Shown here in pieces: positions 55,203 through 57,705 of a DNA stretch of 64,000 nucleotides. A program made the translations under genes and the position numbers. The notes beneath the pieces were generated by a model, which worked only from the letters and a program-made list of their open reading frames with translations, was not told the DNA's origin and made no database searches. Source of the stretch: Acarospora socialis. Its lineage: Eukaryota; Ascomycota; Lecanoromycetes; Acarosporales; Acarosporaceae. Numbering within the stretch: the first letter of the stretch is position 1; the number at the start of each line of letters is the position of its first letter. Location: positions 310,001-374,000 of the forward strand of contig JAMYGW020000008.1 of assembly GCA_025617375.2 (NCBI GenBank), given 5' to 3'.

Positions 55203-56051
55203 GATAAAGTGGATGCCGAGCCCGTGGACTTGTGGTTCCTTCGTGCCGGAAGACTAATCGCCATGGAGAAGTCAGGCAGCAGTTTTTCCAACAGCTTTTA
55301 TAATTTGAATGGGCGAATGGATGGGTAACACTAGTTTTTGAGCCTATATCACATACTGTTTGGTCTCACAGGCATCAATCCATATAGTATGTGTGTTGAA
55401 TATCTGATAGGTGGCGCACAAGGAGGCATGGGACTGGCGTTCTGCATCTGGGCCAATCTGGGACGTTTAGGTCTACTATATCTTCTTCCTGCCACGATTG
55501 GCGATTTCCTTTCCGGTCGGACGAATTAGGCTGGGGTTTTCATTTCGTACTCATGTGTCATCCATCATGGTGGAGGGAGTAAAGTCCTCATATGCAGCCC
55601 TAACCTGTACTGAAATTCTACGGATCTACATCAAATCGTTGCCATAGTCATCAAGCAATAGTATCCTTCCCTGTACCTCATCTAGAGCTATCCCATCATC
55701 TGGCCCACCAAATATGATTGACACCATATGAGTACAACGATGACTACCATCTACCTAGTGCAGTATGAGGGCTGCAGAGATTTGCAATGTGGAGGGTGTT
55801 ACAAGTGCTTACTAATCAAGTTGGCTTGACATTGCCTACCTATTGTCGCCATCTGGATTCTTGCCTTTTTCCCCTCATCATACTACAACGTCAAACAGAT
55901 CAAAAGGCACAATCAGTCTCAAGTACCGTATCGGCAGCTCGGTATCAGAAGCCACGTCTTGTTGAATCAAGAGCTCAACGCTTACGCCGAGGCACTTACT
56001 CGCCCGTCTTCAAGCGTCTTATAACCATTCCAACTGTGGCAGTCATCAACA
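55203..56051. other. MPE1-antizyme spacer
   Basis: About 850 bp holding the MPE1 3' UTR and the antizyme promoter and leader. Short open frames (for example 55338-55529) have no recognisable features. Confidence 0.45.
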
Positions 56052-57015
56052 ATGGCGAAACCTACCGAAAATAATCAAGGTAAGAAAATTAGTAATCGTC
56101 ACGTCTACAACAACCCGCCCACGCCTTCCGTCCTGGCCAGCTGCTACACAGTCAGTGCCAGCAACATGGCGCTGCAAGGATTTCACTATTCCTCTACGGG
56201 TGCCGGCGGTACGTATGGTCCAAATCCTCCTCACTGCCGCCACCGGTGTCGACGTTACTCCTCGAAGGGTAATCTTGATACTAGTGAGGACGCTGACAAG
56301 CATGGCTTTTTAGGGGCACAGTGGTATCCCTGAGGTCCCCTCAGGGATCCCTTCCCCGCCACAAAGTCCCCCCCTCCACGCCACCACGGCCCACGCCGAG
56401 GTCTTCGACAGCAAGTTGAAGAATGTCGGACTGCGTGGAAGGGGGGCTGCGTACACCGTGACGGAAGAGTGTGAGAGACTCTTCTGCGAGACACTGAAGG
56501 CCGTGTTCCTTGGTGAGAGGAACGCGGTCGGGCAGGACTCGCTTGTGACGGGTGCACATATAATCAATGTTTCGGGTCAGTACTATTCGGCGACGCATGG
56601 CCTGGTCAGTGGTTGGGTAGAAGTCTGGGACTATGTGGGGGATACAAGCTTCAGGGGCTTCGTTGCGGGCGAAGGCGAGGACAAGAATCTCTTCGTCTTC
56701 TTCGACGATGGACTCATCGGCAAGGACTTGAAACATGGGTGAGTCCGACAACATCTTCGCAGGCTGTAATGGAGCTCTCGTATGGCTGACTCCCACATTA
56801 GACTCATCGCTCTCATGGAACTTGCGAGCGATCCCAACTTTGACTGTGCCGGAGTGGTTGCCTGCCTTGATCGGTCAAGCGACGCAGGAGAAAGGAAGAG
56901 ATTGATGAGGGACTTGGGATGGGTTGGCTTCAGCCTCATCACGCTGGCGCATTGGGCTGAAGGGCATGAGGAGGTTACTAGCGAGAAGTGGGTGTTTTTA
57001 GGATTGGAGGTTTAG
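56052..57015 (+). CDS. oaz: Ornithine decarboxylase antizyme, expressed by programmed +1 frameshift
   Basis: Antizyme binds ornithine decarboxylase, sends it to the proteasome and limits polyamine uptake; polyamines promote the frameshift needed to make it. ORF1 starts MAKPTENNQ and ends TGG TAT CCC TGA (stop 56331-56333). ORF2 is in the +1 frame from 56332 and, after an intron (56739-56801), ends at 57015. ORF2 carries the antizyme core: LFVFFDDGLIGKDLKHGLIAL, DRSSDAGERKRLMRDLGWVGF and a C-terminal HEEVTSEKWVFLGLEV. ORF1 probably has an intron at 56209-56313 (GTACGT donor, TTTTAG acceptor; 105 nt, in frame), giving about 264 residues in all. A further intron with the GTAAGA donor at 56080 is possible but not needed. 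The frameshift is expected biology in this family, not a defect. Confidence 0.88.
56326..56348 (+). promoter_or_regulatory. Antizyme +1 frameshift site inside a perfect hairpin
   Basis: The shift site CCC-TGA is at 56328-56333. It lies in the left arm of a perfect inverted repeat: ATCCCTGAGG (56326-56335), loop TCC, CCTCAGGGAT (56339-56348). The family is known to use a sense codon followed by UGA, with flanking stimulators. A stem holding the shift codons themselves is unusual, because the ribosome must melt it on arrival. The pairing may instead act before or after decoding, or simply reflect coding constraint (IPEVPSGIP). Confidence 0.75.
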
Positions 57016-57705
57016 AGATCGAAGTCCTGCCGCAATCCTGCGTCGGTTCGTTGTTCAGGGGTGCTTGCTTACTATACTCTCTCTCTCCCCGTGCTATCAC
57101 TTGCCCAATGTCATGTAATTGATGCCCGCAAGTCTACGCTCTAAGAGCTACAACAGTGCATACCTTAGTGATATCATTAATTCACCTCTTTGCTCAAACA
57201 CGGATCTGGTCCTCCTCGCTCATTTGTCTGTTTGCCTTTGCACTTTGCAGTAGCGCCGGCTCGGTAAAGGCGGGAGGGGGAGGACTCAGTCATGGTCACT
57301 AGTCCATGCGGGGAACCAATCATAGGTAGGGTATCTGTACTTGTAACTTAACTTACAGTACACATTATTGAGGTCACGGGCACACCCCTCCGGCATCCGG
57401 CGGAAACCAAAAAAGATGACTAACCTACGCATGACTCCGATATTCTCTACCTACAGAGTACCTTAGGTACCTACTATCTGCTATGTGGGTACTCCAGCAT
57501 TCATCCCGATCAGCTTTTGGCTGGCAAAGTACACATCCACTTAAGTACTGAGAGAAGGCACGCTCTCGTGTTGGAACGATCATGAGTATACACTAGACTG
57601 GCTAAATCGGGCGGGACGGTTTCGCTCATTTGGTGAGCCCTAAGTCCGAGCTGCCCCGTCAGCTAACGACCACCTCAACGACGCCCGAATCAATCGAATA
57701 TCAGC
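57016..57705. other. Antizyme-Yippee spacer
   Basis: About 690 bp with a CT-rich tract (CTCTCTCTCCC near 57078) and GGTACCT-type repeat words near 57460-57475. It presumably contains the promoter of the Yippee-like gene. No gene seen. Confidence 0.45.

Follow-up and report, generated by a model that had tools for sequence, protein, structure and literature searches.

In antizyme genes, a UGG two codons before the shift codon is strongly conserved, and Gly or Pro is frequent at position -7 with a Gly or Pro neighbour, as stated in the antizyme sections of a review (PMC5009743). In the same sections, CCC_UGA antizymes were counted as a tiny minority, two being known at the time of an extensive survey, and CCC_UGA was found to lower frameshifting in a mammalian cassette (PMC5009743). 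Basidiomycete antizyme mRNAs contain a conserved structure that starts 19 nucleotides (nt) 3′ of the frameshift site; the pertinent part of PMC4505036 describes its stimulatory and polyamine-sensitising effects as weaker. Ascomycete antizyme sequences are known (Botryotinia, Emericella), and the portion of PMC3432380 that treats them records no experiments as of 2012. The present analysis concerns an antizyme gene in a 64,000-nt stretch of the Acarospora socialis genome (contig JAMYGW020000008.1, positions 310,001 to 374,000; the whole stretch is called the window below). In this gene the putative CCC_UGA shift site was found to lie inside a predicted hairpin of the spliced mRNA, and it is likely that selection has kept the pairing.

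The gene occupies positions 56052..57015 of the forward strand and, judged by its conserved domain, is an ornithine decarboxylase (ODC) antizyme gene. Residues 93-206 of the 206 encoded by the second open reading frame (ORF2) matched PF02100 (ODC antizyme) with an E value of 3.8e-43 over profile positions 2-114 of 114. This was the single PF02100 match across the 31.1-Mb genome containing the window, which also carries a gene of the PF02784 ornithine/arginine decarboxylase family (E 2.6e-78). ORF1 comprises 58 sense codons followed by UGA, and ORF2, which lies in the +1 frame, has 206 amino acids after removal of the predicted introns. The shift site (56328..56333, + strand) consists of CCC (56328-56330) and the stop codon UGA (56331-56333), with UGG two codons 5′ of the shift codon (TGG TAT CCC TGA); the site is CCC_UGA and not the majority form UCC_UGA, which is not a defining feature. 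The +1 frame continues from GAG at 56332 and is open from CCC_UGA into the PF02100 domain.

According to the sequence-only reading, CCC-TGA lay within a perfect 10-base-pair (bp) hairpin with arms three bases apart, and this exact complementarity was confirmed. The arms ATCCCTGAGG (56326-56335) and CCTCAGGGAT (56339-56348) are exact reverse complements that enclose CCC-UGA around a 3-nt TCC loop (56326..56348, + strand), and each was present once on the + strand of the window. The core hairpin had a folding energy of -16.2 kcal/mol and pair probabilities of 0.95-1.00 in the fold of the whole spliced coding sequence (CDS). The 64-kb window contained five perfect hairpins with stems of 10 bp or longer and loops of 3-8 nt, and 200 kb of background contained another five; only the shift-site hairpin among these 10 had a stem guanine-plus-cytosine (GC) content of at least 50%. 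When 20,000 synonymous recodings were made in each of four null settings, with the protein and CCC fixed, a Watson-Crick stem of at least 10 bp over the shift site arose in 0.7-1.7% of recodings, and in 2.8-6.5% when G-U pairs were allowed. The 40-nt fold of the core region gave a z score of -2.21 (9 of 400 own-codon permutations as stable) and, with genome codon usage, -2.63 (2 of 400). Among background ORF windows, z of -2.21 or lower was reached in 51 of 2,007 and an energy as low in 4 of 2,007. At these rates of matches among recodings and background windows, the 10-bp core alone is weak to modest evidence for selection. The hexamer ATCCCT occurs twice, 21 nt apart (56326 and 56347), and AGGGATCCCT at 56343-56352 is a perfect 10-nt palindrome.

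When the predicted intron 1 was removed, 2+2+7 extra pairs lengthened the core to 21 Watson-Crick pairs, a larger structure that the sequence-only reading had missed. This extended hairpin had an energy of -37.9 kcal/mol in 52 nt and pair probabilities of 0.93-1.00 in the fold of the whole spliced CDS. In its middle part (56320..56352, + strand), AG at 56320-56321 pairs with CT at 56351-56352 and GG at 56323-56324 with CC at 56349-56350 (probabilities 0.93-0.97). The base helix (56205..56360, + strand) is formed by GGCG of exon 1 (56205-56208) and GGG of exon 2 (56314-56316) with CCCCGCC (56354-56360), giving 7 bp with probabilities of 0.99-1.00 in the spliced form, so that its 5′ strand is split by the exon junction. 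In the unspliced form the lowest helix was only 4 bp (GGGG/CCCC, 56313-56316 with 56354-56357) and the 52-nt energy was -28.5 kcal/mol. The hairpin takes in the shift cassette, which reaches from codon -6 to codon 10 of ORF2, and its arms include or flank the shift site. Three of its pairs join two synonymous third positions (-16/+30, -13/+27 and +6/+12). Against dinucleotide shuffles, the unspliced sequence gave z scores of -2.86 for a 100-nt stretch (3 of 200 as stable) and -3.35 for a 207-nt stretch (0 of 200).

The 52-nt stem was compared with 10,000 recodings per null in which the protein was kept and UGG UAU CCC was held. Recodings as stable as the stem numbered 3 when own codons were permuted (z -4.42), 4 with own codon usage (z -4.35) and 2 with genome codon usage (z -4.48); with uniform codons, 2 of 4,000 were as stable. 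When only one side was recoded, the corresponding counts were 0 of 4,000 for ORF2 and 101 of 4,000 for ORF1. None of 1,615 background 52-nt ORF windows reached the z score or the energy of the stem, the lowest values being -3.74 and -27.0, respectively; these windows had a GC content of at least 48%, and the background ORFs were single-exon frames taken mechanically from both strands rather than annotated genes. Among 43,998 windows from 39 DNA pieces with a GC content of at least 45%, one was at -30 or below (-33.9). The spliced 52-nt extension is stronger evidence than the core alone.

These comparisons bear on whether the pairing is a coincidence of coding, in which Gly-Gly-Ala-Gln-Trp-Tyr-Pro ahead of the stop and Glu-Val-Pro-Ser-Gly-Ile-Pro-Ser-Pro-Pro behind it yield G-rich and C-rich arms and chance codons did the rest. 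The sequence-only reading had allowed that the stem might simply reflect IPEVP/SGIP coding, and in part it does. The recoded 52-nt region averages about -18.5 kcal/mol, the core arises in the fraction of recodings given above, and its 40-nt z score is matched by background windows. However, the observed -37.9 kcal/mol is left unexplained by coding, since the full spliced stem was matched by so few recodings and by no background window, and 13 of the 15 third positions that are degenerate within -16 to +30 take part in pairs. We consider coincidence of coding rather unlikely, and the stem proposed by the sequence-only reading appears to be a real and probably selected element in view of its extension over the exon junction and the synonymous nulls.

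A second predicted stem, helix 2 (56365..56448, + strand), begins 31 nt past the UGA and consists of a 15-bp outer stem around two small hairpins, with an energy of -43.4 kcal/mol when folded alone. In the fold of the whole CDS its seven inner pairs had probabilities of 0.90-1.00 and its outer eight 0.65-0.78. The region gave z -3.12 (1 of 400 own-codon permutations as stable) and, with genome codon usage, z -4.56 (0 of 400). Two of 413 background windows had a z as low as -3.12 and none an energy as low as that of helix 2. A later part of ORF2 had no excess structure (z +0.27 and -0.32); of the stretches tested, those with an excess are therefore the ones close to the shift site. Helix 2 may hold the next ribosome or serve as a distant 3′ stimulator. 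It might also stop a leading ribosome so that the following one sits on the shift codon, a weak suggestion that comes from spacing arithmetic only.

The geometry of the ribosome limits what the shift-site hairpin could do. The front edge of the ribosome is taken to lie 16 nt 3′ of the first base in the P site. By arithmetic, it would touch the base of the extended stem near codon -11, then reach the core at codon -6 and the loop around codon -3. A role as a classical 3′ barrier or stimulator was rejected on these grounds because the stem would be mostly unzipped before CCC enters the P site. The proposal that the stem slows ribosomes fits this geometry only in that their leading edge runs into the stem several codons ahead of the shift codon. 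We propose, with moderate confidence, that the 21-bp hairpin of the spliced antizyme mRNA is a selected element by which ribosomes are slowed or spaced shortly ahead of the shift codon. The stem would slow the unzipping ribosome while codons from about -11 to -3 occupy the P site, and the ribosome would thus arrive late at CCC_UGA and at a distance from neighbouring ribosomes. Once the stop codon occupies the A site, tRNA-Pro (IGG) may slip from CCC to CCU with three base pairs kept. The anticodon IGG can pair with CCC as well as with CCU, the triplet reached by a +1 slip; the genome contains a tRNA-Pro(AGG)-like gene, whose A34 is presumably converted to inosine. Tuning of the barrier or of the shift by polyamines is a guess. 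Alternatively, re-formation of the stem may affect trailing ribosomes, or the base helix may act as a clamp.

The last option can be extended to a new class of antizyme frameshift control by a splice-completed hairpin that buries the shift site. In such a model the exon junction would give half of the base helix, the whole cassette would be unzipped before the slip, and the base helix could re-form around a ribosome on CCC_UGA as a clamp open to tightening by polyamines. We regard this model as rather doubtful. In a fold with positions -12 to +15 blocked, GGCGGG/CCCGCC had a mean probability of 0.43, and the minimum-energy structure of the same fold, which ignores three-dimensional geometry, paired the 5′ strand of the base helix upstream.

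Several points weigh against a selected, ribosome-slowing or ribosome-spacing element. When CCC occupies the P site, the ribosome edge is taken to be at about +16, which puts the loop inside the ribosome together with the 5′ arm and half of the core's 3′ arm. Stable stems can reduce translation. Intron 1 is inferred from splice signals, and the unspliced stem is weaker. The 52-nt borders were picked after the fold was seen, which makes the null figures somewhat generous; Gly-Gly before the shift site and the Pro-rich stretch after it already push the arms to G and C; and the structural evidence comes from a single sequence. In agaricomycete antizyme the stimulatory peptide acts although toe-printing detects no stalling, as described in part of PMC4505036.

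The stem could also act in the opposite direction, as a brake that lowers frameshifting or output and holds antizyme down until it yields to polyamines or ribosome traffic, with an outcome like that of the inhibitory elements of budding yeast. An energy of -37.9 kcal/mol is a heavy barrier, and S. cerevisiae regulates by controlled reduction of frameshifting, whereas the yeast brakes are nascent peptides and the yeast shift site is anomalously shift-prone, as far as the yeast passages of PMC5009743 describe them. The present data give no direction of effect, and a brake is in our view improbable.

The splicing of intron 1 (56209..56313, + strand, 105 nt) bears on both the stem and the peptide before the shift. 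GTACGT, CTGAC (56293-56297) and TTTTTAG resemble fungal intron signals, and exon 2 probably starts at 56314. The intron length is divisible by three and no stop interrupts the frame through it, so an unspliced reading with the intron retained could also be made. Spliced ORF1 would end in G-A-G-G-A-Q-W-Y-P, with Gly at -8, -6 and -5; the -7 position conforms only in part to the pattern described for antizymes, having Ala with Gly on both sides (-8 and -6). The antizyme of S. pombe shows P-A-G-G-A in a table of the review, as far as that table goes (PMC5009743). This resemblance of the predicted spliced peptide leans towards splicing of intron 1. A stem at the 3′ splice site of an in-frame intron could mask or present that site, so that splicing and not translation would be regulated. 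In the pre-mRNA fold the G of the acceptor AG, G56313, is paired to C56357 (probability 0.98), the core pairs stay at 0.95-1.00, and the multiple-of-three length with its open frame suits such a role; yet the lowest helix is full only after splicing (7 bp compared to 4 bp), which favours a role in the mature mRNA, and we judge a splicing role very improbable. A mutational or DNA-level origin, in which a template switch perfected a quasi-palindrome or the palindrome is a protein-binding DNA site, is suggested by the perfect 23-nt inverted repeat with its 3-nt centre and by the ATCCCT direct repeat, but it is highly improbable since the pairing runs on through further helices, the last of them completed over the exon junction, so that full pairing exists only in spliced RNA.

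The remaining parts of the gene, all on the + strand, are as follows. Exon 1 of ORF1 (56052..56208) is an open frame whose start codon is taken to be the first ATG, at 56052; the second in-frame Met is codon 39. Exon 2 up to the shift codon (56314..56330) completes a Gly codon and then encodes A-Q-W-Y-P. The first part of ORF2 (56332..56738) is an open frame with PF02100 similarity and is followed by a predicted 63-nt intron 2 (56739..56801; GTGAGT...CTGAC...TTAG), after which the last exon (56802..57015) ends at the stop codon TAG (57013-57015); the joined frame carries the full PF02100 domain. A PDB sequence search returned no antizyme and three adenosine kinases with E values of 0.2 or worse. 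A search of 55800-57200 against Rfam gave one chance match, mir-3154, at 19.2 bits compared to a gathering score of 64.

Relatives of the gene were sought by several routes. A protein pattern search of viral contigs gave no match; in genome contigs 29 stretches fitted a pattern, none of them coding for a relative; and exact DNA patterns matched nothing in viral or genome contigs. A loose shift-site pattern was present in at least 120 stretches of viral contigs. A tblastn search with ORF2 over 122 records returned no fungal relative, only its own genome twice and one 28-residue match (E 0.18).

Two tRNA-Pro-like genes with inserts were observed elsewhere in the genome. At 1426-1622 of locus L144 (contig C1, near 2269891), a tRNA-Pro(AGG)-like gene is split by three inserts, of 55 nt in the D arm (GTGAGT...CTAAC...CAG), 18 nt in the anticodon loop and 53 nt in the T arm (GTAAGG...TTACAG). 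ARAGORN identified the joined pieces as tRNA-Pro(agg), and neither ARAGORN nor Rfam found a tRNA in the unjoined sequence. By their sequences the D-arm and T-arm inserts of this tRNA gene resemble introns of the mRNA type; among literature titles, none reporting such introns in a tRNA gene was found. At 1481-1636 of locus L149 (contig C7, near 425750), a tRNA-Pro(CGG)-like gene has a 35-nt insert in the anticodon loop and a 51-nt insert in the T loop (GTACGT...TTAAC...GGTAG). The insert borders, those of the anticodon loop included, are uncertain because ARAGORN gave only tRNA-?(Arg|Pro)(cg) for the joined pieces; Rfam gave no tRNA match at this locus. Across the genome, the T-loop junction pattern had five matches compared to four for a reversed control, with only L149 tRNA-like by eye, and the D-arm junction pattern had no exact match beyond the L144 place. 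A first tRNA-Pro pattern found nothing. ARAGORN found no tRNA gene in six loci, in eight with introns allowed, or in the window plus 20 background loci (L123-L142; 264 kb, introns of up to 400 nt). The genome-wide Rfam tRNA search, in which 63 of 1,275 candidates were scored, gave at least 59 matches, at least 41 of them on contigs C15, C16, C33 and C38. The GC content of the window is 37.5%, compared to 51-66% in 100-nt windows over 56100-57049, and among the 20 background stretches it was 26-28% in 6, 48-53% in 10 and between these values in 4. Such a contrast is seen in genomes with repeat-induced point mutation.

If the proposed slowing is correct, a +1 site inside a 21-bp stem would suggest that a recoding signal can act by being unzipped beforehand, and the gene would allow one to test directly if +1 slippage depends on a slowdown a few codons earlier. 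It could also add an RNA route for polyamine sensing. The three pairs that join synonymous third positions make a test of the pairing simple once relatives are aligned. Among the literature titles and abstracts searched, no fungal antizyme shift site in a stem was found; the 2007 survey by Ivanov and Atkins, reportedly the main survey of antizyme shift sites, was not covered by that search, so such a case may already be in print.

With known antizyme +1 cassettes (PF02100), the gene shares two ORFs with ORF2 in the +1 frame, a sense codon followed by UGA, UGG two codons upstream and Gly at -8, -6 and -5. It differs from them in having CCC_UGA in place of the usual UCC_UGA, Ala at -7 and a shift site inside a predicted stem. 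It resembles mammalian antizyme 1 (AZ1) and invertebrate antizymes, which have pseudoknots, in that mRNA structure would adjoin the shift site; however, the AZ1 pseudoknot sits 3 nt 3′ of the shift site, as given in the section of PMC5009743 on these elements, whereas here the arms flank and include the site. Helix 2 is comparable to the basidiomycete 3′ double stem-loop in that both would be outside the mRNA channel when the shift happens, but the latter starts 19 nt downstream and helix 2 31 nt past the UGA, and the two were compared by position. The predicted base helix has the topology of the HIV-1 anchoring helix outlined in the review (PMC5009743), although that helix belongs to retroviral -1 frameshifting and homology is not expected. 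In T4 gene 60, the take-off codon and its flanks form a functional stem-loop, as the bypassing section of the review describes (PMC5009743), and the predicted hairpin is alike in holding its shift codon within the stem; gene 60 differs in being a phage gene with 50-nt bypassing, and no homology exists between the two.
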